From Caballeronia cordobensis (GTDB taxonomy: Bacteria; Pseudomonadota; Gammaproteobacteria; Burkholderiales; Burkholderiaceae): a stretch of DNA of 64,000 nucleotides. Location of the stretch: assembly GCF_001544575.2 (NCBI RefSeq), contig NZ_FCNY02000003.1, forward strand, positions 310,001 through 374,000, read 5' to 3'. Below the pieces are notes generated by a model. That model was not told where the DNA came from and did no database searches. It worked only from the letters and a program-made list of their open reading frames with translations. Made by a program: the position numbers and the translations under genes. Position 1 is the stretch's first letter. Each line of letters begins with the position of its first letter. Positions 6,578-27,175 of the stretch are shown piece after piece.

Positions 6578-8266
6578 CTATCTGTTCGAACACAACGCAA
6601 AAGGCAAAACAAGACGCGAAAGGTGCGTTGAATCTCGATAAATGGTGTGAGTCACTGCTCGTCCAACGGGCAGGTGAAATGCGTCGGGAGGCAACAGGGA
6701 ATTGTGCTCATCCACAAGCGGCTCATTACACATAAGTTCGACGACCAGCTTGTGGCCAGCCTTAAATTCATTTGCGAAGGGATAGAGTCGCACGACGTAT
6801 TCGTTGATCACTCCAGGCTCGACAGGCACACTGAGGGTATGTGGGTGATACGGACTGCCGTCGCTGGAACGTTCGTCGAGTTCGCGATGCGACGCCTTGA
6901 GGAAACCTGTCGTAACAAGCTGGCGCTTGCCAGTAGGCGCTTCGTCCCACAGGCGCAGGATAAGATTGGTATCGTCCTGGTCGATTGCGACATAAAGATG
7001 CGCGGCGCCCACGCCATGCGCCGATGTTGCAACCTGGAACGGTTCGGTGGACCATGTCAGCTTCTCGACCTTGTCTACCATTGTCAGCGGCGCCTGATAG
7101 AAGCCTTCGGGATGTGCATGATCCGCGTTCAACGGCTCGGGTTCGAACGCCAGCTTGCTACGCGTGCGCAAGTACAAAGCCTTGTATGTCACAGGCGTGA
7201 CGGGCCAATGGTCGGCGGCCATCCATTGACGGCTGCCTTCGACATGCACCTTCACCGCTGGCTCGTCCATGATCCCGTTGTCGATACCCTTTAGCCAGTA
7301 GTCGTACCAGCGGAACATGGTGTCGTGCTCGTCCACCCAAGGGCGCGTCTGCATCGGTGGATACGGACCGATTTCCAGCTTCTTCGGGCCTTTCAGCACA
7401 TCGAAGAGTTCGATCGTTCCGTCCATGGTCCAGCCGCGCCCCTGGTTGATCTGCAAATAGACAGGGATGTCGATGTTTTTAGCCAGATTGATCGGGTTCT
7501 GCTCTTCGTACCAATCGCCGTCGAGAGGGTTCATGACAATGTCGAACCAGGACTCGTGGTGAATCGGATAATTGAGTAGATGCACCAGGTTGGGCCAGGC
7601 GGCCACGTCGGGGTCGGCGAGTCGCTCTGCCACACGTCGCTTGATTTCCTCTTCGGAGTACGTCTCCAGCATGCGAGATTTGTGACGATGCGTGAAGGCC
7701 CAGCCCGAGTCGCCGCCACGGCCCTCTCGTGCAGCGCGCGGCATGAACCACATGACGCCGCCGTGATACGTCGTTTCGTAGAAGTCGAAATGCCCACCGC
7801 TCACGAAGATGGCCTTGAGATGCGGGGGGCGCTCGGCCGCGGCAAAGATCTGCATGGAGCCGAAATAAGAAATACCGATCATGCCCACCACGCCGTTGCA
7901 CCACGGTTGCGCGGCAACCCACTCAATGAAATCGTATGCGTCGCATCCGAGCGGAACGCCACCGGCGTTGTAGTTGCCGATGTGTTCTCCCTCTGAACCG
8001 CCGGAGCCACGTACGTCACCGATCACGTGGACGTAGCCCTCCTTCACCACACGAGCGATGTCACCCGCCTCGATGCATCCGTCCCACAACGGAGAGGGAC
8101 GTCGCTGGGGCGGAATGGTAAGCGCCAGCGCCTGTAATTCCTTGCCGTAAGGACTCAGCGCGACCAGTGCCGGGCGCGGCATATCGCCTTCGGCATGATA
8201 GGCGTCTGCGGCCAGTTGAATGCCGTCGCGCATAGGCACACGCAGGTCTTTGTGTACAACCATCAT
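6578..8266 (-). CDS. CocE/NonD-family hydrolase
   Basis: 562 residues from the first of two tandem ATGs, which overlaps the stop of the upstream gene (ATGA). The alpha/beta-hydrolase nucleophile motif is GISYFG with Ser133, in the X-Pro dipeptidyl-peptidase/cocaine esterase domain. The C-terminal ~200 residues form the jelly-roll domain typical of this family (PF08530), ending in the usual VELMCNEPLV strand region. Family members hydrolyse esters, amides or peptides with bulky acyl groups. Placement between an MBL-fold hydrolase and an uptake system suggests cleavage of an ester or lactone-derived intermediate. Confidence 0.88.
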   Translation of the reverse strand: MMVVHKDLRVPMRDGIQLAADAYHAEGDMPRPALVALSPYGKELQALALTIPPQRRPSPLWDGCIEAGDIARVVKEGYVHVIGDVRGSGGSEGEHIGNYNAGGVPLGCDAYDFIEWVAAQPWCNGVVGMIGISYFGSMQIFAAAERPPHLKAIFVSGGHFDFYETTYHGGVMWFMPRAAREGRGGDSGWAFTHRHKSRMLETYSEEEIKRRVAERLADPDVAAWPNLVHLLNYPIHHESWFDIVMNPLDGDWYEEQNPINLAKNIDIPVYLQINQGRGWTMDGTIELFDVLKGPKKLEIGPYPPMQTRPWVDEHDTMFRWYDYWLKGIDNGIMDEPAVKVHVEGSRQWMAADHWPVTPVTYKALYLRTRSKLAFEPEPLNADHAHPEGFYQAPLTMVDKVEKLTWSTEPFQVATSAHGVGAAHLYVAIDQDDTNLILRLWDEAPTGKRQLVTTGFLKASHRELDERSSDGSPYHPHTLSVPVEPGVINEYVVRLYPFANEFKAGHKLVVELMCNEPLVDEHNSLLPPDAFHLPVGRAVTHTIYRDSTHLSRLVLPFALCSNR

Positions 8267-9198
8267 GAGCGATAGCCCTTGTGAAAGTATCCGTGCATCG
8301 TGGTAAAGAACGGTGAGGGTTCCAAGGTTGGATCGCCGTCGTAGCGCAAATGCTGGGCGATACAGCAAAACGGCGAACAGGGAGCCGTGGCAATAGCCTT
8401 GCCGTCGAGGCCGAATTGCTTGGTGGCGGCACGCACCCTCGCCTCGATGTCGAGGCTTTCCTGGATCTTGGCTGCTGCCTGTTCGCGGTCCAGCACCACG
8501 CCCAATGATTCAGCACCCTGGCTGCGATAGGGATGACCGAGAAACAGGCGGTTTGGCTTGACGTGGTCGCGCAGGTGCAGCAGGCTGGCACGATACGCAT
8601 CAGGATCTGCATAGCTCGGAAATCCGTTGGCGGCACCGTGAATCTGCACGGCATCGCCGACGAATACATCGCGCTGCCCTTCCACCACATAGGCCACCGA
8701 ACCTGCCGTGTGACCCGGCACGGAGTGCACTGTGATCGTCACATCCGGTCCAAGCGATATCTGGTCGCCATGGCGGACAACCCGGTGCGGCTCCATTTCC
8801 CCGGAGATAGCGGCCTCACAGGCCGCCGTCAGCCTGGCTTCTCCTTCCGGGTCGTTGATATAGCGTCCACGCGCGGCCAGATATTCTTCGACGTGAGTGC
8901 GGCGCGATCGAAGGAACGGCGCATCCGCCTCGTGGATAACCACTTTGGCTTTGCGGCCGGTCAGCTCCCATAAGGCATGCGCACCACCCATGTGGTCGAT
9001 ATGCCCGTGCGTCAAAAGAATCCAGCGCACGTCTTCAATGCGTCGCCCCAATTGCTTCAGGGCTGGTGCAATGCCGTCCGCCGGCGATGATGCGATGCCA
9101 GTGTCAACGATAGCCGGCTCGCTTCCGTCGATGAAGAAACTGTAGAGGCCAAAACGCCCCCATTGCGAAAACAACGGGTGGATATCGACGGCGTTCAT
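8263..9198 (-). CDS. Metallo-beta-lactamase-fold hydrolase
   Basis: 311 residues. The zinc motif HGHIDH is at 64-69 (His64, His66, Asp68, His69), followed by VPGHTAGS, GDAVQIHG and FLGHPYRS, which supply the remaining ligands. This is a complete di-metal set. The family includes lactonases, glyoxalases and thioesterases. Start overlaps the upstream gene stop by ATGA, and its own stop overlaps the CocE start, so the three hydrolases are translationally coupled. A lactonase or thioesterase role in the cluster is plausible but inferred. Confidence 0.9.
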   Translation of the reverse strand: MNAVDIHPLFSQWGRFGLYSFFIDGSEPAIVDTGIASSPADGIAPALKQLGRRIEDVRWILLTHGHIDHMGGAHALWELTGRKAKVVIHEADAPFLRSRRTHVEEYLAARGRYINDPEGEARLTAACEAAISGEMEPHRVVRHGDQISLGPDVTITVHSVPGHTAGSVAYVVEGQRDVFVGDAVQIHGAANGFPSYADPDAYRASLLHLRDHVKPNRLFLGHPYRSQGAESLGVVLDREQAAAKIQESLDIEARVRAATKQFGLDGKAIATAPCSPFCCIAQHLRYDGDPTLEPSPFFTTMHGYFHKGYRS

Positions 9199-10136
9199 CG
9201 CTTTGCATTCCTGATGAAATCAGACGTTTCGGCGAACACGCCCTGGAATTCCGGCAGCCAGGAAAAATGCTGGACAAAACCATGCCCGGCCGATTCGTAG
9301 CGATGAACCGTGGCCGGAACGCCTGCCTGCTGCAGCTTTGCGCCATACAACTCCCCTTCGTCACGAAGGGGATCGCATTCTGCAGTGACAATGAGTGCCG
9401 GCGGCAATCCGGATAAATCCGCTCTCTTAATGGGCGACACGCGAGGATCGGCAGGGTTTGCACCGCTATCGATGTAGAACGCGTTGAATGGCTTCAACAT
9501 CGCCGTTTCCAGACCATTGCCAACGGCGTTGGTCTTCATCGACGCATAGCGCTCGACATCGAAGTCGAGATCGAGCGACGGGTAATAGAGCACCTGATGC
9601 GTGATGCATTTCAGACCCGCATCGACCGCCATCGCGGCGACCGCAGCCGCGAAGTTCCCGCCTGAACTGTCACCTGCCACTGCCAGGGTCTGACCGTCCC
9701 AGCCAATCCCGTTGCCCGGACTGCGGCCATTCTTTTCTATCCACTGAACCACGGCGTAGCAGTCGCTCAGGCCTGCGGGGAAGACGTGTTCGGGAGCCAG
9801 CCGGTAACCGACTGAAACGACAACGCATTGCGTGGCATTGGCCAGTGCGCGCGCAACATGATCGTGCGTGTTGAGGCTGCCAAGAAAGAACGCGCCACCG
9901 TGGAAATAAACCAGTACCGGATGGATGTCGGCTTCCGTCGGCTTGTAGACGCGCACGGGAACATCGCCGGCCGGTGTCGACAAGGACTGGTCGAATACCG
10001 AATGAACGGGAGGCCGCTTCTCTAACGGAGGAACGTGGCTCTCGTCAGCCGCTCGCATGGCCTCCGGATTGAGTGGACCGGGAGGTGGAGGCGGAAGGGA
10101 CGCGATGAACTCGGCCACAGTCGGATGCAGTGCCAT
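9195..10136 (-). CDS. Alpha/beta hydrolase, hormone-sensitive-lipase (HSL) family
   Basis: 313 residues from the ATG at 10136, chosen because GAGGAG lies nine bases upstream and overlaps the end of the preceding gene. The oxyanion motif HGGAFFLGS begins at 79 and the nucleophile motif is GDSSGGN with Ser157. The acid ECDPLRDEG and the histidine in AGHGF complete the triad. A proline run (five prolines near residue 15) precedes the fold. Enzymes of this family are carboxylesterases or lactone hydrolases active on small substrates. It is embedded between a flavin monooxygenase and an MBL-fold hydrolase. Confidence 0.9.
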   Translation of the reverse strand: MALHPTVAEFIASLPPPPPGPLNPEAMRAADESHVPPLEKRPPVHSVFDQSLSTPAGDVPVRVYKPTEADIHPVLVYFHGGAFFLGSLNTHDHVARALANATQCVVVSVGYRLAPEHVFPAGLSDCYAVVQWIEKNGRSPGNGIGWDGQTLAVAGDSSGGNFAAAVAAMAVDAGLKCITHQVLYYPSLDLDFDVERYASMKTNAVGNGLETAMLKPFNAFYIDSGANPADPRVSPIKRADLSGLPPALIVTAECDPLRDEGELYGAKLQQAGVPATVHRYESAGHGFVQHFSWLPEFQGVFAETSDFIRNAKR

Positions 10137-10140
10137 AGCT

Positions 10141-11259
10141 TTAGCTCCTCGCAGCGATTTCGCCCTGATGCTGGTTGGGGAAGACACTCTGAACTTCGTC
10201 TTCGCTCCAGCTTTGCCGGGACAGGCGTTGCAACTCATCGGTTACCGGCTTGCGGCTGGCCTGGTATCGCGCGAGTGCTTCGGGAATTGAATCGGCCTCA
10301 CGAAGCTTCTCGGCAAGCGCACCGGCATCCAGCACCGCCGAATTCGCGCCCTGGCCTTGATGGTGAAGCATCGCGTGCGAGGCATCGCCAATCAGCACCA
10401 CCGAGTTGGAATGCCAGACGGGAACCGGGTCGATGTCGTACACGGCACGCAGATTCACCTTGCTCAAGTCGAGCCCCTCCGCGATTGCCACTAATCGAGG
10501 ATCGAAACCCTCCACGACTTTCATCAACTGCTCCTTGCTGACGGCGGGCGCTGGCGTGGAGTCGGTCGCCAGACAAGTGACATCGAACGACACCTCGTTG
10601 CGATGGTGTAGTGGCAACAGGTAAATCTTGGTCCCATGCCCCAGGTACATGCGAAGGTTGCCATCAGCCACCAGGCCAAAGGTGTCTGCCGCCGGGATGA
10701 CCGCGCGATAGGCGTGCTCGCCGGCAAACACGGGGGGCTTATCGCTGAACAGATACTTGCGCACTTGCGAGCGGATGCCGTCGGCACCGACAATCAGATC
10801 GGCGTTGACCGTCACACCGTTCTCGAAGACAGCCGTGGCACCGTCGCCGTTGTCGACGATTCGGCTGAGACGGTGGTTCAGCTTCACCATGCCTGCGGGA
10901 AGCGTGCTCAGCAACGTCTCGATGAAGTCGCCCCGGTGCACGAAATGCGTGCTGGCGCCAAAGGCCTGCTTTTCGGGCCATTCCTCCATGGCAATTCGCT
11001 GACCGTGAGCGGTCAGAATTTCGAAGTAGTCGCTCGGCGAGGTCACGGCGGCGATTCGATCGAAGATTCCGAGCTTACGGAACTGGTCCATCGTGGAGGG
11101 ACGTAATCCAATTCCGGCCCCCACTTCGTTGATCTCTTGCGCCTGCTCGTACACCGTGACCGTTGCGCCTAACTGGCTCAGCGCCAGCGCCGCGGTTGCA
11201 CCCGCATAACCGGCGCCGATTACGGCGATATTCAGTTCCTTCAAAGTGCCGGGTGTCAT
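10141..11259 (-). CDS. FAD-dependent monooxygenase (salicylate-hydroxylase type)
   Basis: 372 residues starting MTPGTLKEL; a longer frame to a TTG at 11289 exists but lacks a ribosome site. The FAD-binding GxGxxG is AVIGAGYAG near residue 13, the second motif is GADGIRS, and the ribityl-contact motif is GDASHAMLHHQGQG. These define group A flavoprotein hydroxylases (PF01494), which use NAD(P)H and O2 to hydroxylate aromatic rings. It starts 26 bases after the phosphotriesterase-like gene. A ring hydroxylation or oxidative decarboxylation step is expected; the substrate is unknown. Confidence 0.88.
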   Translation of the reverse strand: MTPGTLKELNIAVIGAGYAGATAALALSQLGATVTVYEQAQEINEVGAGIGLRPSTMDQFRKLGIFDRIAAVTSPSDYFEILTAHGQRIAMEEWPEKQAFGASTHFVHRGDFIETLLSTLPAGMVKLNHRLSRIVDNGDGATAVFENGVTVNADLIVGADGIRSQVRKYLFSDKPPVFAGEHAYRAVIPAADTFGLVADGNLRMYLGHGTKIYLLPLHHRNEVSFDVTCLATDSTPAPAVSKEQLMKVVEGFDPRLVAIAEGLDLSKVNLRAVYDIDPVPVWHSNSVVLIGDASHAMLHHQGQGANSAVLDAGALAEKLREADSIPEALARYQASRKPVTDELQRLSRQSWSEDEVQSVFPNQHQGEIAARS

Positions 11260-11285: not shown

Positions 11286-12263
11286 TCAATGATGGGAAAT
11301 AGGCGTCAAGGTCAGAAACTCGGCCGCGTTATGAACGAACAGCTGGTCGATGACCGAGTCATCGATACCTTCCGCATGCAGATCAGGGATGAGTTGCTCG
11401 AACAGATAGTTCACCGTGTGGCCTTTCACGCCTGGCCAACCCAGCGGTGAGCAATTGGCATCCGCCGAGGCAAGGACTTGTTTGGTCAAGCCACTTCTGA
11501 GGAATCGTAGAAAGTGGTGCAAACGCTCCTGACGGTGGCGGCCCCAGAATGGCGGATCGGGCAATTCAAGGTCGTAACCGAAGGTATCGAAGCCAATCCG
11601 TGCTCCCGCATCCAGAAGGGCCTTTTCGTTGATCAAGCCTTGGCTCACACCATCATCGGCATGTCCAAACAACACCCGATGGCAAGGCAACCGCTCCTCC
11701 GCAAAAATGTTCAGCGCCGGCGCGGAATCAACCGCAAGATGGGTGAAGATCGGTGCGCCGGTGATTCTGGAGGCACGCGCAGCAGCGCGATAGATACGCA
11801 GGTCGAGCTCTTTCATCTTGAAGCCGCGACTCACCCCGACCTTGATGATCCCGGCCTTCGCACCGGTGCCGCCAATTCCGACCTCGATTTCATGGATGAA
11901 GTGGTCGGTCAGATACTCGACGCTTGCCCGCTCGAAGAACGGCAATGCCGTGTCGCCGCCGACAAAGCCCGTGCTGGCGACGATGTGCACACCCGTCTTG
12001 TCCGACAGAGACTTGTAGTAGTCGATGTCGCGACCGTTGCAGATGCCCGTGGCCTCCACGAAGGTGGCTGCACCCCAGGGTTTCGTATTCTCATGAAACT
12101 GGCGCAGCTTCGGCACCGTCTCCTCATAGCGCTGCTCTGGCGTCTTCCACCACTTGCTGTCGAGTTCGCAACCCGGCATGCCATAGCCAATGTGCTCATG
12201 GATTGCGACAAACCCGAGCTCCGAAGCCGAAATGGTGCCCAGTACCGTATTCACTCGTGTCAT
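11286..12263 (-). CDS. Phosphotriesterase-family amidohydrolase, intact metal site
   Basis: 325 residues. All ligands of the binuclear site are present: HEH near residues 22-24, the carbamylated lysine in IIKVGVS, His in IFTHLAV, His in LFGHADD and Asp in ASADANC. Many homologues are lactonases rather than phosphotriesterases, and a lactone or ester substrate fits the other hydrolases here. Its start overlaps the stop of the upstream degenerate homologue (ATGA at 12260-12263), so the two are translated together. See the next entry for the partner. Confidence 0.88.
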   Translation of the reverse strand: MTRVNTVLGTISASELGFVAIHEHIGYGMPGCELDSKWWKTPEQRYEETVPKLRQFHENTKPWGAATFVEATGICNGRDIDYYKSLSDKTGVHIVASTGFVGGDTALPFFERASVEYLTDHFIHEIEVGIGGTGAKAGIIKVGVSRGFKMKELDLRIYRAAARASRITGAPIFTHLAVDSAPALNIFAEERLPCHRVLFGHADDGVSQGLINEKALLDAGARIGFDTFGYDLELPDPPFWGRHRQERLHHFLRFLRSGLTKQVLASADANCSPLGWPGVKGHTVNYLFEQLIPDLHAEGIDDSVIDQLFVHNAAEFLTLTPISHH

Positions 12264-13324
12264 TTGACCTCCCCATTCACGCTCAGCAATCGCGCGGTGT
12301 TCGTAATCAGCATTTGTGCGATGTGTGCCTGCGAAACACCCGCTGCCTGGAGCATGGGCGCGAACTTCGTCAGCACGTCGCTGTAGGGAATGTCGTTACC
12401 CGGTTCGCCAAAGGCCACCCCCGTGGCATTGGCGGACAGAAGGATGCGATCGGCATAGCCTTCTTCGATCAATTTGGATATCAAACTGACCCGTTCGACA
12501 TCGCTGAGATAAAGCGGGTCGTTCGAGCCGATGTGATCGATGCTCAAGCGGACACCGGCCCGCGCGACTGCCATGGGCCAGCCCTTGACCACGGCGTCGC
12601 GACGATCCATTCCGCCCATGATAAGGCGGTCCGGCTCCAGCACTTCGTCGATGGCCAACTGCATTTCAGCCAGAGCATCGGCACCGCTGCGGATGAACAC
12701 AGGCACGCCATAAGTCGAGCCAGCGCGCGCGGCGCCTCGCACGAGGTTGTCATCGGTGGGCGTCATGCCACTTTGGGTGACCGCGGTCACCACCATGCCA
12801 GCCGGCGCACGACGTTCCCTTCGAGGCACCACCATGCCCTCATTGACTTCTTTGCCGAACAATTCGGCAAACTTGCTTGCTGGCCACGGGGTGGGAGGAT
12901 TGGTCTGCGGCGTCAGAAAATATCCACCCAGCATGGACTCGGGCCCCTGCCCCGTGGAAGCGACGATGTGAACGCCGGTGTCACGTGACAGCGACTCGTA
13001 CATGCGCAGGTCGCGCCCTTGGAACATGCCCGTCGCATCGACGATGGTGCCCCCGCCGGCCGCCTTGAACGCGCTCAGCTTGGCCGCCAGGCGCTCAAAG
13101 ACTTCAGCGCGATCTATCTTGATGTCATAGGCGTACTGCGCTCCCGGTAACACATACATCAGCGATTCGCTGACGAGCGTGATGCCAAGCCGCCTTGCCT
13201 CGACCGGGCCGAGCACCGTGTTGACCAGCGTTGCATTGACACCGCCGTAATTGGGAGGGTCAAGGATCAGCGAAGTGAAAGGCGGCAAGGGTTCCAAGGC
13301 ACCCTGGCTGTGTTTAACGCACAT
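12260..13324 (-). CDS. Phosphotriesterase-fold protein lacking all metal ligands (probable pseudoenzyme)
   Basis: 354 residues from the ATG at 13324 (GGGAG seven bases upstream). It aligns along its length with the neighbouring intact phosphotriesterase-like protein, sharing NTVLG, the GRD..YESLS block and GVHIVASTG. Every metal ligand is replaced: HEH becomes SES, the lysine becomes Val (GMVVTAV), the two single histidines become Arg (VFIRSG) and Gly (IMGGMD), and the aspartate becomes Asn (LSANAT). The frame is intact with no stops, so this is not simple decay. Translational coupling to the active paralogue suggests a structural or regulatory subunit. Independent catalysis without metal remains possible. 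Confidence 0.85.
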   Translation of the reverse strand: MCVKHSQGALEPLPPFTSLILDPPNYGGVNATLVNTVLGPVEARRLGITLVSESLMYVLPGAQYAYDIKIDRAEVFERLAAKLSAFKAAGGGTIVDATGMFQGRDLRMYESLSRDTGVHIVASTGQGPESMLGGYFLTPQTNPPTPWPASKFAELFGKEVNEGMVVPRRERRAPAGMVVTAVTQSGMTPTDDNLVRGAARAGSTYGVPVFIRSGADALAEMQLAIDEVLEPDRLIMGGMDRRDAVVKGWPMAVARAGVRLSIDHIGSNDPLYLSDVERVSLISKLIEEGYADRILLSANATGVAFGEPGNDIPYSDVLTKFAPMLQAAGVSQAHIAQMLITNTARLLSVNGEVK

Positions 13325-13508
13325 ATTCGTCTCCCATAAGTGGCGAGACGCAATGCGCGTTATCAACGGTAGAAGCGGTCATCTCACTCAAAGCAAACTC
13401 CCCATCTAAAACATGATGTTCTTTGTAATGCCGTTCCCGTAGTACACCTACGTAATATCGCGGCTTTTCCGTTTGGCTTATGCTGGATCTATCGCTAACG
13501 CGTGCCGG
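13325..13508 (-). promoter_or_regulatory. Gap between ferredoxin reductase and phosphotriesterase-like genes
   Basis: 184 bases, the largest gap between the electron-transfer genes and the hydrolase genes of the cluster, so a second promoter is likely here. It contains a CGTAG / CTACG inverted repeat with a 5-base spacer at 13438-13452 and an AACAT-G-ATGTT element near 13410-13420. Neither matches the 27-base inverted repeat upstream of the P450 gene. Confidence 0.35.
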
Positions 13509-14654
13509 CTACAGGCTGCACGCAGCCACGCGGCGCAGCTTCGGGATCGGAACGCGATAGTCAATCGCGACGGCAGTCGCGGTGCCGTCCGATTGCCGCC
13601 AGCGAAGCACTCCCTGTTCACCGGTGCCTTCCACGATCTCCGCCTCACCCGCAACCGGCGTTGGCCCAATGGCTTTCAGAGAGACACCAAAAGCCTCTGT
13701 CCAGAAGTACTGCTGGAATGCCAGCTCCGGAGCATCCCGCTTGAGCAGCGCGGCGGCGGCCACTTTCGCTTGATCGATGGCGCTCGTCCATAGCGGAACA
13801 CGTGCGACGCGCCCCGCGTGCGGGAATGCGGCGACATCTCCCACCGCTGCAATGTTCGGGCGAACCAGGCCGCGCCGGTCCACCTCGAGCGCGCCTCCAG
13901 TGAGTAGCCCGGTGTTGGCAAGCCACTCCACATTGGGGGCATCGCCGATAGCAGAGACAATCACCTGCGCCTCGATTACCGTGCCGTCGCCGAGCGCCAC
14001 CACGGATGCACCATCGCGCATCACGATCTCGGCGGAGTCAGTCGTGACGATCTTGAGGCCCTGCGCGAGAGCCGCATCGTGGAACCGCGCCGCGAGCAAT
14101 GCGCCGAGATGGTCGGCGAGCGGCGCGCCTTTCGCAACGAGTGTCGTCGCGCATCCAGCCCCGATGGCGCCGGATGCGATCTCCATGCCGAGCGGGCCAC
14201 CGCCCACCACCACGACCGAAGGCCTTGTCGAGAGTCGCGCCCGCAACGCCAGCGCGTCGGCGAGCGTGCGAACGGTGTATTCAGTACTACTAGTGTTCAG
14301 GCCAAGGCGTCGGGCGCGCGTGCCGGTGGAGATCACCAGCGCGTCATACGGCACCTCGTCACCATCCGCAAGCCGCACGCGCTGCCGATCGACATCGAGA
14401 CCCACGGCAGCCATGCCGCGCCGTTCGATTGCCCCGTGCGTCGCCGCCGGCAACAAGTGCGAAGTCAGATCATCCTGGTAGCGCAGCATGGCCTTGGACA
14501 GGGCCGGACGGCTGTATGGCGCGACCGGCTCGTCACCGATTACCGTGATGCGGCCATCGAATCCTTCGGCGCGAAGCGTGTCGCAAGCGGTCAATCCCGC
14601 GATGCCACTGCCTACTACTACGATATCGCGGACGGCATTTCGAAGGACACTCAT
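13509..14654 (-). CDS. NAD(P)H ferredoxin reductase, FAD-dependent
   Basis: 381 residues with an FAD Rossmann motif GSGIAG at 15-20, the SRPALSK segment characteristic of putidaredoxin-reductase-type enzymes near residue 50, and a second NAD(P)-binding motif GGGPLGME near 150. It would transfer electrons from NAD(P)H to the ferredoxin encoded just upstream and on to the P450. The start overlaps the ferredoxin stop by four bases. Length is somewhat shorter than the usual ~400-420 residues, with an abbreviated C-terminal domain. Confidence 0.88.
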   Translation of the reverse strand: MSVLRNAVRDIVVVGSGIAGLTACDTLRAEGFDGRITVIGDEPVAPYSRPALSKAMLRYQDDLTSHLLPAATHGAIERRGMAAVGLDVDRQRVRLADGDEVPYDALVISTGTRARRLGLNTSSTEYTVRTLADALALRARLSTRPSVVVVGGGPLGMEIASGAIGAGCATTLVAKGAPLADHLGALLAARFHDAALAQGLKIVTTDSAEIVMRDGASVVALGDGTVIEAQVIVSAIGDAPNVEWLANTGLLTGGALEVDRRGLVRPNIAAVGDVAAFPHAGRVARVPLWTSAIDQAKVAAAALLKRDAPELAFQQYFWTEAFGVSLKAIGPTPVAGEAEIVEGTGEQGVLRWRQSDGTATAVAIDYRVPIPKLRRVAACSL

Positions 14655-14860
14655 CGCGTCGCCTCTTCGTCGACGAGCCTGAGCGCGGCTACCGGACAGA
14701 CGCGCGCCGCAGCCTGCGCCGTCGCCAGGATCGCATCGCTGATTTCGTTCATATCGATGGCGGCATAGCCTTCATCGTCGATATGAAGAAGCTGTGCGGC
14801 CACCTCTACGCAGAGACCATGACCTTCGCAACGAGGGCGATCAAGAATGAGTTTGATCAT
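14651..14860 (-). CDS. [3Fe-4S]-type ferredoxin for cytochrome P450
   Basis: 69 residues. Cysteines at 11, 17 and 55 (followed by Pro56), with His14 in place of the second cysteine (CEGHGLC), is the pattern of P450-associated ferredoxins that bind a [3Fe-4S] or [4Fe-4S] cluster with non-Cys ligation. It overlaps the P450 stop and the reductase start by four bases on each side, giving a complete three-component class I P450 system in one translational unit. Confidence 0.93.
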   Translation of the reverse strand: MIKLILDRPRCEGHGLCVEVAAQLLHIDDEGYAAIDMNEISDAILATAQAAARVCPVAALRLVDEEATR

Positions 14861-16032
14861 ACGGCCTCCAGCTCCATGACGGGGACGGTGTCGAACGACA
14901 ACGTGATATTGCTCGGCACGCGGGCGACATCGCCGATGCGGAACGATTTGATTTGAGTCGCAAGCGCCTCGATGATTGCGGCACCCTCCATGCGGGCAAG
15001 GCCTTGGCCGGCGCAACCATGCGGGCCATAGCCGAAGGAGAGATGGTCGATCGGGTTGCGTGTCACGTCGAAGACTTCAGGATCCTTGTAATGGCGCGGG
15101 TCGTGGTTGCCTGCGCCCAGAATGATCGCAATGCGCGAGCCGCCCGGGATCTTCACGCCGCCGACTTCCGCGTCTTGCGTCGCAACCCGGCTCCACACAT
15201 GGACGGGCGAGTAATAGCGCAGCACCTCGTTGAACGCCGAGGGAACCAGCGAGAGATCCTCGCGCACCTTGGCAAACTCTTCGGGAAAGCGCCCGAAGAG
15301 CGCGACGGTGTTGCCGATCGCGGCAAGCGTCGTGTCGAGGCCAGCGCCGAGATACTGGTGGATGATGTGGCGTGCGGCGCCTTCGGGAATGATCCCTTTG
15401 CGCTCCGCCTCGAAAACACCCCAGCCAACAGAGCCGTGGGTGAGCGCGTCCTGGGTGATCTGCGAGCAGTAGCCGTAAAGTTCACCCGCGATAGGGAAAT
15501 GCTCTGCCGTGCGTTGATTCATCGGCCCGACGACTTCCATCGCGGCCTGCCCCCAGCGCAACATATTCGCCCTGGCGTCACCCTGGAAGCCCACGAGGTC
15601 GGCAACAACGCCGATCGGAAAGCGCCGGGCGATGTCGTCGATTGCGTCGAAGGAGGGTTGTTTTACAAGGCGGGCCACCAGTGCCTGCGCATTGGCCTTG
15701 ATCTGCTCGCCCAGACCACGCAGCGCCCGCGGCGTGAGGTTCTCGGAAAGGGCTGCGCGCAACTGGGTGTGCACCGGCGGATCGGACGCCAGCGAGGTTC
15801 CCTGCAAAGCCTGGTTCACGCCGTCGTTGAAGCCGATGCCCTGAGCGGAAGAAAATCGCGTCGGGTCGGCCAGCGCCTCCTTGATAACGTCGTAGCCAGT
15901 CAGGGCATAGAGTTTCGAGTGCGTGAGATAGACGACTTCGCCGAGTTCGCGCAATGCCCGATAAGACGGATAGGGATCGACGAGCACATCGTCGGCCCAA
16001 AGGTCGATGCCGGATTGGGGGACGCTAGTCAC
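14857..16032 (-). CDS. Cytochrome P450
   Basis: 391 residues, a typical soluble bacterial P450. The I-helix motif is LGAGLDTT, the K-helix ExxR is EVLR, and the haem-binding loop FGYGPHGCAGQGLAR places the thiolate ligand at Cys340. It would hydroxylate or O-demethylate a small hydrophobic compound using electrons from the ferredoxin and reductase encoded directly downstream. It is the first catabolic gene after the TetR gene, and a strong inverted repeat lies 42-68 bases upstream of its start. The subfamily and substrate cannot be assigned confidently by eye. Confidence 0.95.
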   Translation of the reverse strand: MTSVPQSGIDLWADDVLVDPYPSYRALRELGEVVYLTHSKLYALTGYDVIKEALADPTRFSSAQGIGFNDGVNQALQGTSLASDPPVHTQLRAALSENLTPRALRGLGEQIKANAQALVARLVKQPSFDAIDDIARRFPIGVVADLVGFQGDARANMLRWGQAAMEVVGPMNQRTAEHFPIAGELYGYCSQITQDALTHGSVGWGVFEAERKGIIPEGAARHIIHQYLGAGLDTTLAAIGNTVALFGRFPEEFAKVREDLSLVPSAFNEVLRYYSPVHVWSRVATQDAEVGGVKIPGGSRIAIILGAGNHDPRHYKDPEVFDVTRNPIDHLSFGYGPHGCAGQGLARMEGAAIIEALATQIKSFRIGDVARVPSNITLSFDTVPVMELEAV

Positions 16033-20413: not shown

Positions 20414-21394
20414 TCAGGCGATGCGCGGATCGAGCCAGGCCTGCAACAGATCGACGACCACGTTCGCCGCGATCACGAGCAACGACGACAACAGCAGCAC
20501 GCCCAGCAGCACGCTGAAGTCGCGCGCCATGACGGCGTCGAGCGCGAGACGCCCGAGCCCGGGCCAGCTGAACACCGTCTCGGTGACGGCTGCGCCGCCG
20601 AGCAGCGTGCCGAAGTGGATGCCCACCATCGTCGTGAGCGGCATCAATGCATTGCGCAGCACGTGGCGCACGCTCACACGCAGCGGATGCAGCCCCTTGG
20701 CATGAGCGGTGCGCACGAAGTCCTGACGCTGCACTTCAAGCATCGCAGCGCGCGTAAGGCGCGCGTAGATCGCCACGAAGAACGTAGCGAGCGTCGCTGC
20801 GGGAAGCAGCACGTGCCTGAGGACATCCGTGAGATAGGCGAAGCCATGCAGTTGCGCGCCGACCGTGACGTCGCCGCCGCTCGGCAGCCAGCCGAGATGC
20901 ACCGAGAACAGCACGATGGCGAGCAGCCCGATCCAGAAGCCGGGCGTCGAGTAAAGCAGCAACGCCAGCACGGACAGCACGCGATCCGGCCACTTGCCGG
21001 CCCAGTGCGCCATGATCGCGCCGAGCACCACGCCGACGATGATGGCGAACGTGAGCGCCGTGCCCATCAGGATCAGCGTATTCGGCAGCCGCCCGAGAAT
21101 CAACTCCATCACCGGCGCGTCGTAGCGCGGCGAATAGCCGAGACTGAAATGCGAGAGATGCGAAAGATAAGACCACAACTGATGCAGCACCGGCTGGTCG
21201 AGACCGAACTTGGCGCGCAGCGACGCGATCGTTTCCGCCGTCGCCGAGCCGGACTCGCCGGCCAGCACGTCGGCGGCGTCGCCGGGCATCCACCGGAGCA
21301 GGAAGAAGTTGAGGATCACGATGGCGAGCACGGTCGGCACAGCCTGCCATGCGGTGCGTCGCGCGATTGCGGCAAGGCGCGTGCGTCGGTTCAT
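20414..21394 (-). CDS. ABC importer permease, DppB-like
   Basis: 326 residues with about six membrane segments. The N-terminal LLRWMPGDAADVLAGESG region and the EAA loop (MLEVQRQDFVRTAHAKGLHPLRVSVRHVLRNAL) are diagnostic for DppB/OppB/GsiC permeases. Starts 12 bases after the substrate-binding protein gene. Forms the membrane channel with the DppC-like protein. Confidence 0.93.
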   Translation of the reverse strand: MNRRTRLAAIARRTAWQAVPTVLAIVILNFFLLRWMPGDAADVLAGESGSATAETIASLRAKFGLDQPVLHQLWSYLSHLSHFSLGYSPRYDAPVMELILGRLPNTLILMGTALTFAIIVGVVLGAIMAHWAGKWPDRVLSVLALLLYSTPGFWIGLLAIVLFSVHLGWLPSGGDVTVGAQLHGFAYLTDVLRHVLLPAATLATFFVAIYARLTRAAMLEVQRQDFVRTAHAKGLHPLRVSVRHVLRNALMPLTTMVGIHFGTLLGGAAVTETVFSWPGLGRLALDAVMARDFSVLLGVLLLSSLLVIAANVVVDLLQAWLDPRIA

Positions 21395-21406
21395 CGCGCG
21401 AACTCC

Positions 21407-23005
21407 TCAGGCGCTCAGCCAGACATCGGCGAGATTGCCTTCGAGCCCTTGCGCCGATACCGTGTGATTGCGCACGCGCCGGTTGGCGAGCGTAATCATG
21501 CGGGGCGCGACGAGACTCAGGATCGGCAGGTCGCGGTACACGATCTGCTGAAACTGCTGATAGAGCGCCACGCGCTTCTTCTCATCGGTTTCGATCGACG
21601 CCGATTCGAGCAGCGTGTCCACTTCCGCGTTGCTGTAATGCGGCGCGTTCGAGAACGGCACGCCGGGCCGGATGTTCTTCGACCAGTAGAGCCGCTGCAC
21701 GCCGACGCTCGGATCGAACAACGTATTCACCCCGATGCTCGTGAAATCGAACTGCCGGTCCGCATAGACGCGCTTGAGGAACGAAGGCAGATCCTGCGAG
21801 CGCACGGTCACGTCGATGCCCACGCGCGCGAGCGCCGATTTCACGTAATCGGCCTGACGGCGGTACATATCGCCATAAGGCAGGAAATCGTGCGTCAGTT
21901 GAAAGCGCGGGCCGCCGTTCTTGCGCGGATAACCCGCGGCGTCGAGCAGCTTTTCCGCACTGGCGATATCGAATGCGTAGGGCGTGAGCTTCGCGTCGTG
22001 ATACGGCGATCCCGGCGTGATGGGCGTCGGCGAGATATCGGCATAGCCGTAGGCGATCGTCTTCTGCACGACCTGCGGATTGATGGCATGCGCGATGGCC
22101 TGCCGCACGCGCACATCTTTCAGGATCGGATGATCGAGATTGAAGTCGATCTCCGAAAGCGGCTCTAGAAAGCGATAACCACGCGTCTCCACTGCGAGTT
22201 GCGGCAATTGCGTGAGACGCGGCAGATCCGAGAGCGGCACGGGATTTTCCCCGCCGAGATCGAGCGCGCCGGTTTCGAACGCGGCCGAGCGCGCGGCCGC
22301 ATCGGGAATCACCTTGAACACGAGCGAGTCGATATACGGTTTGCCCGCATCCCAGTAGTCCGGATTGCGTTCGTAGACGATGCTCGCGCCGCGCGTCCAC
22401 GACTTGAAGCGGAATGGCCCCGTGCCGATGGGCGCATTGTTATGCGGGTTTGAGAGCGGATCGCCGCTTGCGTAGAGATGCTTCGGCACGATCGGCGATT
22501 CGCCGGCGGACAGCGCCTTCAACAGATACGGCGCGGGCTTCGACAATTCGATGATCGCGGTGCGTGTGTCGGGCGTCGACACGCGCGTGACGTTGGCGAA
22601 GGTGCTGCGCCCACGCGGATGAATCGATTTCAGAAGCTCGATGGAGAACGCCACATCCGCCGACGTGAAAGGCTCGCCGTCGTGCCACTTCACGTTCTGA
22701 CGCAGCGTGAACGTGTACTTGAGACCGTCCGGGCTCACGTTCCACGCGGTCGCGAGCTGTGCTTTCGGCTTCAGATCGAAGTCGTACGCGAGCAGGCCTT
22801 CGAGCACCTTGGAACTCGCGACGAGCGCGGGACCTGTCGTCTGAAAGATCGAGACGAGCACGGGCGGCTCGGGGTTGATCAGCATGTTGAGTGTGCCACC
22901 GCGCCTGGGCGGGCCCTCTTGCGCGTATGCGAGCGAAGACAGGCCGGCGGACGCGAGCGCCACGCCTGATGAAACCAGAAAATCGCGTCGATTGAAGCCT
23001 GCCAT
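21407..23005 (-). CDS. Periplasmic substrate-binding protein, SBP family 5, Tat-type signal
   Basis: 532 residues. The N-terminus MAGFNRRDFLVSSG carries a twin-arginine motif, then a hydrophobic stretch ending AYAQ, so export may be by Tat, which is uncommon for this family. The body matches peptide/nickel-type binding proteins (PF00496), including LRQNVKWHDGEPFTSADVAFSIE. These capture oligopeptides, opines or other polar organic compounds. First gene of the minus-strand importer operon, divergent from a flavin monooxygenase gene with which it probably shares regulation. Confidence 0.93.
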   Translation of the reverse strand: MAGFNRRDFLVSSGVALASAGLSSLAYAQEGPPRRGGTLNMLINPEPPVLVSIFQTTGPALVASSKVLEGLLAYDFDLKPKAQLATAWNVSPDGLKYTFTLRQNVKWHDGEPFTSADVAFSIELLKSIHPRGRSTFANVTRVSTPDTRTAIIELSKPAPYLLKALSAGESPIVPKHLYASGDPLSNPHNNAPIGTGPFRFKSWTRGASIVYERNPDYWDAGKPYIDSLVFKVIPDAAARSAAFETGALDLGGENPVPLSDLPRLTQLPQLAVETRGYRFLEPLSEIDFNLDHPILKDVRVRQAIAHAINPQVVQKTIAYGYADISPTPITPGSPYHDAKLTPYAFDIASAEKLLDAAGYPRKNGGPRFQLTHDFLPYGDMYRRQADYVKSALARVGIDVTVRSQDLPSFLKRVYADRQFDFTSIGVNTLFDPSVGVQRLYWSKNIRPGVPFSNAPHYSNAEVDTLLESASIETDEKKRVALYQQFQQIVYRDLPILSLVAPRMITLANRRVRNHTVSAQGLEGNLADVWLSA

Positions 23006-23201
23006 GTAATGCCGTTCCTTTCTGTTCGTTGTTCGATGACGGCATATGACGCGCCGCAGCGATCACGATAGAACGGCGTTGCGTGCGCGTGAACCAACGG
23101 TTGCGCATATGAAAAGCAAGGCGTGTCGAAAAGCATGTGACGTGGACTGCAATACCGCGCGTCCAAAACAATCCACAAATGCTTCTTTGTCTGCGAGTGT
23201 G

Positions 23202-23211
23202 AGCACGTGCT
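23202..23211. promoter_or_regulatory. Palindrome in the divergent promoter region
   Basis: AGCACGTGCT, a perfect 10-bp palindrome, lies in the 261-base space between the divergent SBP gene and the flavin monooxygenase gene. Position fits a shared operator, but no dedicated regulator gene adjoins. Confidence 0.25.
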
Positions 23212-23266
23212 TAACTCTCGTGCTCCGATGCGCGACGTCGCCCGGTCAACCTTCTGGACATGCAAC

Positions 23267-24475
23267 ATGAGCGAGACAACGTACTCCGCGCACTCCGAGC
23301 CGCATGCAACGCAATCACGCGCGAGCGCGTTCGTGGACGTCGCGTCACCCGTGCAGTTTCCCGACAGTCCGGTGTCGCGCGTGTTCGCGCAGCCGCTCAT
23401 GCTCGGCCTCTTCCTGCCGATCCAGGCGGGCGGCTGGAGCGCCTCCACCCTGCCGCGCACGACCGACTGGTCTTTCGACTACAACGCCGATCTCGTGCTG
23501 AAGGCCGAATCGCTCGGCTTCGATCTCGTGTTCGCGCTGTCGCAATGGCTGCCGAAAGGGGGTTACGGCGGTGTCTTCAACGGCGAGGCGCTCGATTCCT
23601 TCATGACGCTCGCGGCGCTCACCGCACGCACCGAGCGCATCATTCTCGCGGCGACCAGCCACGTGCTATACGGCCCGTGGCATCCGCTGCACTTCGCGAA
23701 GTTCACCGCGACGCTCGATCATATCTCGCGCGGACGCTGGGCCATCAACGTCGTGACGGGACATCGCGCGGTCGAGCACGAGATGTTCGGCTGGAACCGG
23801 ATCGAGCACGACCGGCGCTACGAGATGGCCGCCGAGTTCATCGACGCCGTACAGCAGCTCTGGGCGCAACGCGAGAACTTCACGTTCGAACCTGAGCTAT
23901 CGAGCTGGAAGCTGAGTGGCGCGTTCGTCACGCCCAAGCCTCGCTACGGCCGGCCACTGCTCATCAACGCAACGGGTTCGGACGCGGGCATCGAGTTCGC
24001 CGCGCGCTATTCGGATGTCGTGTTCATCACGAGCCCGGCGGGGCCGGACATCGATCGCGCGCTGGAGGCGCTGCCCGCGCACGCCGCGCGTGTGAAAGCC
24101 GCCGCCGCGAGGCACGGCCGCACGATCCGCACGCTGCTCAACCCGCTTGTCGTGTGCCGCGAGACGGCGGCCGAAGCGCGCGCGTATCGCGATGCGATCG
24201 TCGCGCACGCCGACGAAGGCAGCTTCCAGCGCTTCGACAGCGACGCGCACGCGTGGCGCGGCGGCATGGATCAGCGCACTCAGGCCGCGGCGCGCGCGGT
24301 GGGCGGCAACGTGTCGATCACGGGATCGCCGGAGGAAGTGGCCGACACCATCGTGCGTCTGCATCGCGCCGGCATCGACGGCGTGCAGCTGAGCTTCTTC
24401 GATTTCAAGCCCGACCTAGACTTCTTCGGCGCGCGCGTGCTGCCGCTGTTGCGCGAAGCGGGCCTGCGACACTGA
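23267..24475 (+). CDS. LLM-class flavin-dependent monooxygenase (SfnG/SsuD-like)
   Basis: 402 residues from MSETTYS; in-frame starts upstream (23207, 23228) would add a non-conserved leader. It has the bacterial-luciferase TIM barrel, with TLDHISRGRWAINVVTGH near residue 155 and EHDRRYEMAAEFIDAV following, both typical of the FMNH2-dependent group that includes dimethylsulfone and alkanesulfonate monooxygenases and RutA. It needs reduced FMN from a separate reductase, which is not encoded nearby. Divergent from the first importer operon and upstream of the second. Confidence 0.9.
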   Translation: MSETTYSAHSEPHATQSRASAFVDVASPVQFPDSPVSRVFAQPLMLGLFLPIQAGGWSASTLPRTTDWSFDYNADLVLKAESLGFDLVFALSQWLPKGGYGGVFNGEALDSFMTLAALTARTERIILAATSHVLYGPWHPLHFAKFTATLDHISRGRWAINVVTGHRAVEHEMFGWNRIEHDRRYEMAAEFIDAVQQLWAQRENFTFEPELSSWKLSGAFVTPKPRYGRPLLINATGSDAGIEFAARYSDVVFITSPAGPDIDRALEALPAHAARVKAAAARHGRTIRTLLNPLVVCRETAAEARAYRDAIVAHADEGSFQRFDSDAHAWRGGMDQRTQAAARAVGGNVSITGSPEEVADTIVRLHRAGIDGVQLSFFDFKPDLDFFGARVLPLLREAGLRH

Positions 24476-24563
24476 TCTCTTCGAGGGTACCGAAGAAAAA
24501 TCGCGCATGCGCCGATGCTCAGCATAACGACGCAACGCGTGAAATCGACCTGAATGCCGACTC

Positions 24564-24575
24564 GATATCGATATC
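24564..24575. promoter_or_regulatory. Perfect 12-bp palindrome upstream of second importer operon
   Basis: GATATCGATATC, 108 bases upstream of the start of the second substrate-binding protein gene, in a 207-base gap that probably contains that operon's promoter. It could also be a chance product of the repeated CGATAT unit. Confidence 0.25.
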
Positions 24576-24682
24576 TCTTTTCGTCGTTTCGGATTCGGAA
24601 GCACGCGCGTCATCATATTCCATTCATCCGCCGGCTTCTCCAACCAAAAAAGGGCGCGCCCCGCCCAACAGCAGACCAACCT

Positions 24683-26251
24683 ATGCGCACGTTCTCGTCG
24701 GTCCTTCGCGGACTGGTCTTCGCCGCCACCCTGTCCGGCGCTTTCATCCTGCCAGCGCACGCCGCGAGCACGGCGCCCGCCGTCGATCGCGACACTGTCG
24801 TGATCGGCGTCGAAAAGGAGTTCTATAACCTCGACGGACTCGTTGCCGTGAGCGGCGATTCGCTTCGCTACGGCTGGCAGATCTACGACACGCTCTACGG
24901 GTTCGACCAGAAAGGCAATCTCGTGCCGCGCCTGGCGACAAGCGTGAGCGTTTCCGACGACGCGCGCGTGTTCACCTACAAGCTGCGTCCCAACGTCCAG
25001 TTCCATAACGGTGCGACGCTCACCTCGCGCGACGTGAAGGCATCGCTCGAACACGTGCTCGATCCGCGCAGCAAGAGCACGCGGCGGCCCTTCTTCGCGC
25101 CGGTCGTCGACGCGGTCGAGACGCCCGACGATCTCACCGTCGTGTTCAAACTGAAGCAGCCGGATGGCGCATTCGCCAACAAGGTCGCGGGCTATCTCTA
25201 TATCGTTCCGTCCGACTATCTCGCGAGCCTGCCGAATCCCGATGCGTTCGCGCAAAAGCCGGTATCGCTCGGCCCGTACAAGTTCAAGTCGCTCGCGCCC
25301 GGCGGCAGCGAGCTCGTGCTCGAACGCTTCGACGACTATTGGGGCGAGAAACCGCGCGTGAAGACGCTGATCTTCCGCGCGATCACCGAGCCGGCGAGCC
25401 GCGTCAATGCGGTGTTGCGCGGCGAAGTCGATCTCTCGGTGGCGCTGCCGTTCTCGGACTATGCGCGGCTCCGGAAGGAAAGCGGGCTCGACGTGATCGA
25501 GAGCCGCGTCGCGTCGCCCGTCTACGTGCGCGTCTATACCACCGACAAGAACTCGCCCTTCTCCAATGTCCAGGTGCGTCAGGCGTTGAGCTACGCGCTC
25601 GACACCAACGCGATCATCAAGAGCGTGCTGTACGGTGTGGGCGAGCCGCTCGGCACGATGATCTCGAACTACTATCCCTACGGCGCGGATCGTTCGATCA
25701 AGCCGTATCCGTACGACCCCGCGAAGGCACGCGCGCTGCTTGCGCAGGCCGGCTATCCGAAGGGTTTCGAGACCACCCTCAACATTCAGGGCGACATGCC
25801 GCAAGGCGTCGCGGAAGCGCTCGCGGCGTACTGGGGGCAAGTCGGGGTGAAGGTCAAGCTCAACCGCCTGACATATGCGACCTTCCAGCGCCTGAACAAC
25901 ACGCACACGTCCGGCCCGCTCGCGCTGAGCCAGTTCACCAACGCGCTGTACGACCCTGTGCATCCGGTGGGCGGCGCGTTCGCATCGAACGGAAGCTGGT
26001 CCGACTATTCGAATCCGAAAGTCGATGCGCTGCTCGCCGATGTCTCGCGCGTCAGCGACACGAAGCAGCGCGGCGCAGTGTTCCAGAAGATCGGCCGCGA
26101 ACTGCACGACGATGCCGCCGCGTTCTTCATCTCCGAGTTCACCTACGTGTATGCGAAGAAGAAGACGCTGCAATGGCAGCCACAGCAAGGCGGCGGCTTC
26201 CTGAACTTCCGCACGATCCAGTGGACGCCGCAAGCGGTGGCCGGGAACTGA
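24683..26251 (+). CDS. Periplasmic substrate-binding protein, SBP family 5
   Basis: 522 residues from MRTFSSVLRG; the frame runs upstream but without a signal-like sequence. A Sec signal peptide ends near PAHAAS. The body matches family 5 binding proteins, with YKLRPNVQFHNGATLTSRDVKASLEHVLDP. It is a different protein from the Tat-type binding protein at 21407-23005, so the two importers probably take different ligands. First gene of an eight-gene plus-strand operon. Confidence 0.93.
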   Translation: MRTFSSVLRGLVFAATLSGAFILPAHAASTAPAVDRDTVVIGVEKEFYNLDGLVAVSGDSLRYGWQIYDTLYGFDQKGNLVPRLATSVSVSDDARVFTYKLRPNVQFHNGATLTSRDVKASLEHVLDPRSKSTRRPFFAPVVDAVETPDDLTVVFKLKQPDGAFANKVAGYLYIVPSDYLASLPNPDAFAQKPVSLGPYKFKSLAPGGSELVLERFDDYWGEKPRVKTLIFRAITEPASRVNAVLRGEVDLSVALPFSDYARLRKESGLDVIESRVASPVYVRVYTTDKNSPFSNVQVRQALSYALDTNAIIKSVLYGVGEPLGTMISNYYPYGADRSIKPYPYDPAKARALLAQAGYPKGFETTLNIQGDMPQGVAEALAAYWGQVGVKVKLNRLTYATFQRLNNTHTSGPLALSQFTNALYDPVHPVGGAFASNGSWSDYSNPKVDALLADVSRVSDTKQRGAVFQKIGRELHDDAAAFFISEFTYVYAKKKTLQWQPQQGGGFLNFRTIQWTPQAVAGN

Positions 26252-26254
26252 GCG

Positions 26255-27175
26255 ATGTCCGCTTATCTCCTGCGCCGCATCGGGTCGGCACTGCTCACGG
26301 TGTGGCTGATGTCGGTGCTGATCTTCGTCCTGGTGCGCATGGTGGGCGATCCTGCCTATCTGCTGATGCCGCCCGAAGCGACCGAGGCCGACCGCCAGAT
26401 CTTTCGCGAGCAACTCGGCCTCGCCGATCCCGTTCCGCTGCAATACGCGCGCTTTCTCGCGGGTCTCTTGCGCGGCGACATGGGCAACTCCTTTCACTTC
26501 GGCGCACCGGCGCTCTCGATGGCGCTGAGCCGGCTCGCGTCGAGTCTTCTGCTCGTCGGGGTTTCGCTGACGCTGGCGCTGGCTATCGGCTTGTCGCTGG
26601 GCGTCGTGTCGGCGGTGCGCCGCGGCGGGTGGATCGACCGGCTGGCATCGATCTTCGCGGTGCTCGGGCAGGCCGCGCCGCCCTTCTTCGTCGCGTTGCT
26701 GCTGATTCGGCTCTTTTCCGTGCAATGGGGCTGGCTGCCGACCGGCGGACACGGCTCGTGGCGTCATCTGATCCTGCCCGTGTGCGCGCTGGCGTGGTAC
26801 TCCGCCGCGGGCATCGCACGGCTCACGCGTGCCAACTTGCTCACGGTGCTCGAAGCCGACTACATCCGCATGGCGCGCATCAAGGGGCTGCCGGAGCGTG
26901 TCGTGATCGGAACGCATGCGCTGCGCAATACGGCGCTGCCGATCGTCGCGTTCACGGCTTCGCAGTTCGGCGTGCTGATCGGCGGCGCGGTTGCGATCGA
27001 AACGGTGTTCTCGTGGCCCGGCTTCGGCAGTCTGATGGTCGAGGCCATCAGCACGCTCGATTTCACCGTCGTGCAGGCGGCCGTGATCGTGTCCGTACTG
27101 CTGTTCGTCTCGATCAATCTTGCGGTCGACGTGCTCTACGCGCTCGTCGATCCGCGTATCCGGTATCGGCAATGA
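26255..27175 (+). CDS. ABC importer permease, DppB-like
   Basis: 306 residues with about six membrane segments, the LVRMVGDPAYLLMPPEATEAD region and the EAA loop (TVLEADYIRMARIKGLPERVVIGTHALRNTALP). Begins three bases after the binding-protein stop, and its own stop overlaps the next permease start by ATGA. Confidence 0.94.
   Translation: MSAYLLRRIGSALLTVWLMSVLIFVLVRMVGDPAYLLMPPEATEADRQIFREQLGLADPVPLQYARFLAGLLRGDMGNSFHFGAPALSMALSRLASSLLLVGVSLTLALAIGLSLGVVSAVRRGGWIDRLASIFAVLGQAAPPFFVALLLIRLFSVQWGWLPTGGHGSWRHLILPVCALAWYSAAGIARLTRANLLTVLEADYIRMARIKGLPERVVIGTHALRNTALPIVAFTASQFGVLIGGAVAIETVFSWPGFGSLMVEAISTLDFTVVQAAVIVSVLLFVSINLAVDVLYALVDPRIRYRQ

Follow-up and report, generated by a model that had tools for sequence, protein, structure and literature searches.

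A phosphotriesterase-fold protein lacking all six metal ligands is maintained beside an intact family member in Burkholderiaceae

The phosphotriesterase (PTE) family serves as a model in studies of enzyme evolution and in the engineering of detoxifying and quorum-quenching enzymes. The closest described relatives of the two proteins studied here, designated A and B, are the phosphotriesterase-like lactonases (SsoPox, VmoLac, GkaP, and DR0930) and PTE/OpdA, which belong to the same Pfam family and have the same (beta/alpha)8 fold. B additionally shares the full set of metal ligands with these enzymes. In SsoPox, residue F104 is located in loop 3. According to one report, the dimer interface of SsoPox includes W263, located where loop 8 begins, which contacts F104 of the partner monomer (PMC3781021). 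The dimer interfaces are large, ranging from 1,473 to 1,770 square angstroms for VmoLac and five related lactonases in a second report (PMC4323659), and one study suggested that dimer formation is perhaps indispensable for activity (PMC7084321). SsoPox and VmoLac are described as homodimers containing a metal site in each chain, in contrast to A, which has no metal ligands.

Dihydroorotase belongs to the same superfamily as PTE. An inactive dihydroorotase is found in the dodecameric bacterial aspartate transcarbamoylase, that of Pseudomonas according to a cited title (PMC4581275). The Pseudomonas complex resembles the present case in that an inactive metal-hydrolase homologue is retained as a structural subunit; it differs in that the dead chain partners an unrelated enzyme, whereas the proposed partner of A is its own active paralogue. 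Deoxyhypusine synthase is unrelated to PTE in both fold and reaction. In trypanosomatids, a dead paralogue of deoxyhypusine synthase forms a heterotetramer in which activity is reported to be increased 3000-fold (PMC3663545). The likeness lies in a dead paralogue working with the other copy, and the difference in the eukaryotic origin of the system. Subunits of this kind are known elsewhere, and no pseudoenzyme or heteromeric pair of the phosphotriesterase family was found in the literature searched, which included few subscription papers.

Genes A and B were analyzed in a 64,000-nucleotide stretch of Caballeronia cordobensis DNA, referred to as the window. The initial annotation described two frames overlapping by ATGA, the first of which aligned with its neighbour over the whole fold and had all six metal ligands replaced. 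Each of these points was recovered, both frames being located on the minus strand (Table 1). A and B displayed 30% identity over 335 columns (BLASTP, E value of 5e-34). The Pfam PTE profile (PF02126, curated cut-off of 22.4 bits) matched B with 149.7 bits and A with 107.5 bits, in each case over positions 1 to 297 of 298, indicating that both proteins are members of the family. No other PTE-family match was found in the whole 8.2-Mb genome containing the window. The metal ligands of B are H22, H24, K141, H175, H201, and D268. The alignment places S52, S54, V178, R212, G238, and N299 of A at these positions, corresponding to replacement of HEH by SES, Lys by Val, one His by Arg, the other His by Gly, and Asp by Asn.

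Table 1. Location of the A-B gene pair, of residues and segments of A, and of neighbouring genes (positions in the window).
Feature	Position	Strand	Basis or comment
Gene A, PTE-fold protein, 354 aa, six metal ligands all replaced	12260..13324	-	PF02126, ligand columns, fold prediction
Gene B, PTE-family protein, 325 aa, ligand set complete	11286..12263	-	PF02126, ligand columns
ATGA shared by A stop and B start	12260..12263	-	Present in 9/9 genomes
GGGGAGG, ribosome-binding-like site of B, within A	12268..12274	-	Sequence
GGGAGA, ribosome-binding-like site of A	13330..13335	-	Sequence
A residues 52-54, SES for HEH	13163..13171	-	9/9 orthologues
A V178 for bridging Lys	12791..12793	-	Ligand columns; Val or Ala in orthologues
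A R212 for His	12689..12691	-	9/9 orthologues
A G238 for His	12611..12613	-	Ligand columns; Asp in MAG
A N299 for Asp	12428..12430	-	Ligand columns; Ser in remaining eight orthologues
A N-terminal extension, residues 1-30, not in B	13235..13324	-	Low model confidence
A loop 3, residues 127-148, proposed B contact	12881..12946	-	18/22 sites unchanged in nine sequences
A loop 8, residues 300-310, proposed B contact	12395..12427	-	7/11 sites unchanged
FAD-dependent monooxygenase, adjoins A-B in core	10141..11259	-	PF01494; 8/8 comparison loci
Alpha/beta hydrolase, core	9195..10136	-	PF07859; 313-aa start per C. insecticola annotation
Metallo-beta-lactamase-fold hydrolase, core	8263..9198	-	PF00753
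CocE/NonD-type hydrolase, core	6578..8269	-	TIGR00976 above cut-off
Ferredoxin reductase, ferredoxin, P450 module, upstream of A	13509..16032	-	Domain matches

Nine distinct A-B pairs were retained after removal of duplicates. They originate from the window, C. arvi, C. megalochromosomata, C. insecticola, P. panacisoli, P. oxyphila, two P. tropica genomes, and one MAG. In all nine genomes, A was open, was devoid of the six ligands, and overlapped an intact B by ATGA. The ligand set of the metal hydrolases (HxH, Lys/Glu, two His, and Asp) was complete in the nine B sequences and in none of the nine A sequences. The same set (His-His-Lys/Glu-His-His-Asp) was complete in 28 of the 28 other homologues checked (23 distinct and five more). 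The four His and the Asp were all present in ten further homologues; the Lys/Glu column had slipped in this larger alignment, with Gly read in eight of the ten added sequences, and one further row (L076), a fragment, was not counted. Ligand loss as found in A is therefore unusual among the PTE-family homologues inspected.

A contains only four His residues; H5, H119, and H264 are unchanged in all nine sequences. A hidden second metal site of the four-His type, built from invariant residues, is thus excluded, and the His residues are too few for other residues to complete a site of the family type. By alignment, H264 is the only invariant His in the vicinity of the old pocket, where it presumably corresponds to a His of PTE that is not a ligand. 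A weak single metal site may exist at position 238 of A, at which the MAG sequence has Asp. The hallmark of phosphotriesterase-like lactonases is an Arg residue following the Asp of strand 7. At this position, B has Thr227 (FDTFG) in contrast to the Arg of the related structure 3f4c (FDRFG); A reads IDHIG. The label 'lactonase' should therefore not be assumed for B.

Identity to the window copy was 73-89% for the A orthologues and 88-97% for the B orthologues. The median dN/dS ratios (NG86, 36 pairs) were 0.134 for A, with a maximum of 0.284, and 0.057 for B, and 195 of the 354 sites of A were unchanged over the nine genomes. Among the six core genes of the cluster, A ranked last in conservation in eight of eight comparisons. 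A flanking gene of C. insecticola encoding an MFS transporter was less conserved than A (82.9% versus 84.2%). Together, these results indicate that A evolves faster than its close neighbours yet is under clear purifying selection. On the basis of nine open copies in distinct genomes, decay, a frameshift, and an assembly artefact were rejected. The possibility that A is a foreign or unusual gene was also rejected, as its GC content (0.608) and third-position GC content (0.724) are in the range of those of eight other measured cluster genes. The initial annotation had proposed that A is a kept pseudoenzyme rather than a decaying gene, and had called for a search for co-conserved pairs with the same substitutions. 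The nine pairs bear out this proposal: the A homologues are neither single nor decaying, display the same losses, and adjoin B wherever they are found. A has the features of a dead paralogue, namely the same fold, lost catalytic residues, and a conserved gene. A tree of 46 rows grouped the nine A sequences in one clade and the nine B sequences in another (support of 100/100 in both cases). The two clades were sisters with a support of 90/95, which is below the threshold of the program, and had stems of about equal length (1.8). The tree fits an old duplication separating A from B, short of proving it.

Within the genus of the window, 58 genomes were searched and four, including that of the window, contained the pair. 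A scan of 84,980 species, each represented by one genome, based on exact short patterns reaching close relatives only, detected the pair at seven contigs, with both genes in all seven. The C. insecticola copy was retrieved from the plasmid collection and is located on a plasmid. In profile searches, strong matches to A (E value below 1e-200) and strong matches to B were obtained in the same five of 398 genomes of the family, the active and the dead gene occurring together; the pair of the fifth genome did not differ from that of P. tropica LMG 22274. The only match to the A profile in a sixth genome, G301, was weak (6e-22) and was an ordinary PTE harboring the ligands (L033). Lone copies of A or B were not seen in these searches. 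Beyond the nine, no ligand-less copy was found among the sequences inspected in a class sample of 369 genomes and a phylum sample of 398 genomes, about five candidates being scored per genome in the genome searches. No relative was detected in the viral contigs searched, and no other ligand-less copy was present among the plasmid loci inspected (eight besides that of C. insecticola; 40 of 147 records were listed). A census of PF02126 revealed a match in 18 of 374 genomes and two genes in two of these: the genome of the window, and G1068, in which each of the two genes retains the ligands. A remnant of a PTE-family gene was noticed in a genome of another member of the Pseudomonadota (L075, G825:C1:8873-9130); it spans positions 68 to 155 of the 298 positions of the profile and contains a TAG stop within the match.

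The ATGA overlap is compatible with coupling of A and B. It is silent on the amounts of the two proteins, and hence on the about equal synthesis proposed in the initial annotation, since B carries its own strong ribosome-binding-like sequence. A GGAG-type site precedes gene A in eight of the nine genomes, at a position which supports the ATG at 13324 as the start of A; the MAG has GAGGA slightly more distant. The region immediately preceding A (window positions 13325-13400), which contains TTTGAGTGAGATGACCG..., shows good conservation across eight Burkholderiaceae loci and might function in regulation or contain a short leader frame.

The order A, B, FAD monooxygenase, alpha/beta hydrolase, metallo-beta-lactamase-fold hydrolase, and CocE/NonD-type hydrolase was the same in the eight comparison loci. 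Co-occurrence consequently does not single out B as the partner of A, since the whole core cluster is linked. The P450/ferredoxin/ferredoxin reductase module was present in six of the eight loci, the P450 gene being partial at a contig end in one of them (L022), and did not appear within the 6 kb preceding A at the remaining two (L026 and L027), the P. tropica LMG and MAG loci. The domains encoded by the cluster (P450, FAD monooxygenase, and four hydrolases including B) pointed to no named substrate. In the two P. tropica loci and in the MAG (L023:5118-5864, L026:4894-5865, and L027:5059-5853), A is immediately preceded by a gene for a GntR/UTRA-type regulator that does not occupy this place in the window, and the regulator of the cluster may have been exchanged between lineages. 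The listed frame of the alpha/beta hydrolase (9195-10238, 347 aa) extends back into the FAD monooxygenase gene; its true start is probably near 10136 since the C. insecticola homologue is annotated with a later start (313 aa). Elsewhere in the window (20414-29923), genes for oligopeptide-type ABC transporters form two neighbouring groups of opposite orientation. The minus-strand group (20414-23005) encodes a permease and a binding protein, and the plus-strand group (24554-29923) a binding protein, a permease, and two ATPases.

The AlphaFold2 model of A, obtained with a 16-row alignment, had a mean pLDDT of 72.9 and a pTM of 0.78, and consisted of strands alternating with helices. Phosphotriesterases were its best matches in Foldseek (E value of 2.2e-23, TM scores of 0.73 and 0.79). 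According to this prediction, A has the PTE fold. The pLDDT was under 50 for residues 1-30, 57-69, 100-103, 127-144, 166-170, 300-310, and 350-354, which include most residues of loops 1, 3, and 8, the loop numbers of A presumably corresponding to those of the solved dimers. Loop 3 of A is proline-rich and longer than that of B. The N-terminal extension, with 10 of its 30 sites unchanged, is more variable than the average of A.

Variability within A was unevenly distributed. The mean pairwise difference among the nine A sequences was 0.278 for strands 5-8 versus 0.173 for all positions, making these strands the most variable class measured in A. The corresponding values were 0.000 versus 0.065 for the nine B sequences and 0.057 versus 0.107 for 12 single PTEs. 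The positions of two lost His and of the lost Asp fall within strands 5-8 or close to their ends. Taken together, strands 1-4 showed no such relaxation (0.128), strands 2 and 3 being almost unchanged. For loops 1, 3, and 8 of A, the mean pairwise difference was 0.088 versus 0.173 for all positions, and the three loops jointly displayed 0.304 changes per site versus 0.802 for the whole protein. Values as low as those of the three loops were obtained with three of 323 cyclic shifts; loop 3 alone was unexceptional (34 of 323). The loops were selected after the model had been viewed, and did not include two other inner segments of low confidence (100-103 and 166-170); including these segments gave 0.084 versus 0.082 (window A counted twice). 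Counting the window A twice left the pairwise differences of the strands and loops nearly unchanged. Conservation of loops 1, 3, and 8 is likewise found in B (0.017 of 0.065) and, to some extent, in single PTEs (0.076 of 0.107), and the stretch 88-182 of A has the same value as the loops (0.088). Thus, the conservation of the loops is not a signature peculiar to A. Judged from these sequence comparisons, the pattern of constraint in A is unlike that of an enzyme. The relaxed strands 5-8 speak against ordinary metal catalysis, and the conserved loops are only compatible with a face directed towards a partner.

A could be a metal-free enzyme or a ligand-binding protein with a rebuilt pocket (SES, R212, D240/R241, and H264) acting alone on a pathway intermediate. 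The use of such a pocket fits the invariance of S52, E53, S54, R212, D240, R241, D243, and H264 in the nine A sequences, the low variability of the six replaced positions (0.074 versus an average of 0.173 for A), and the conservation of the loops above the pocket mouth. We nevertheless consider this reading unlikely: three of the six positions lie in or at the ends of strands 5-8, the most variable class measured, V178, G238, and N299 differ among species, and no known catalytic constellation was recognised in the pocket. Alternatively, A might serve as a scaffold for another enzyme of the cluster, the FAD monooxygenase or another hydrolase, as the invariable order of the core links A equally to all its members. 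This is improbable given that B is the sole scanned cluster protein belonging to the family of A and is joined to it by the ATGA overlap, and that the lactonase relatives SsoPox and VmoLac are described as homodimers.

The last rank of A in conservation among the core genes and a median dN/dS more than twice that of B would also be in agreement with a weakly constrained protein that is slowly degenerating and is retained mainly because its translation feeds B. Against this, the dN/dS ratio of A is far below 1, more than half of its sites (195/354) did not change, its frame is open in every genome, and B possesses its own ribosome-binding-like site. Such a passive role is the least probable of the explanations considered.

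The reading that we favour, with moderate confidence, is that A is a non-catalytic subunit that would pair with B and shape the mouth of the B active site. The heteromer raised in the initial annotation has indirect support, from the distribution of conserved parts in A. A and B would be ancient paralogues in a catabolic-type operon. B, which retains the ligands of a binuclear metal centre, is presumably a hydrolase. A, having lost its metal centre, would most likely stand in for the second monomer of the dimer formed by the lactonase relatives. Loops 1, 3, and 8 of A would form the side directed towards B, and the long conserved loop 3 might shape or stabilise the mouth of the B active site. 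If the lactonase geometry were kept, the loops of A would be located next to the B active site and part of the A barrel would drift. A stronger version, in which A and B are obligate partners in a heterodimer, the first heteromer of the phosphotriesterase family, with loop 3 of A reaching into the substrate channel of B and with B inactive or mis-specific on its own, is conceivable from the sequences but less likely than not.

A conserved metal-free paralogue beside an intact one would show the PTE fold splitting into catalytic and helper chains. The A-B pair would also provide a natural system for testing how a dimer partner controls an active site.
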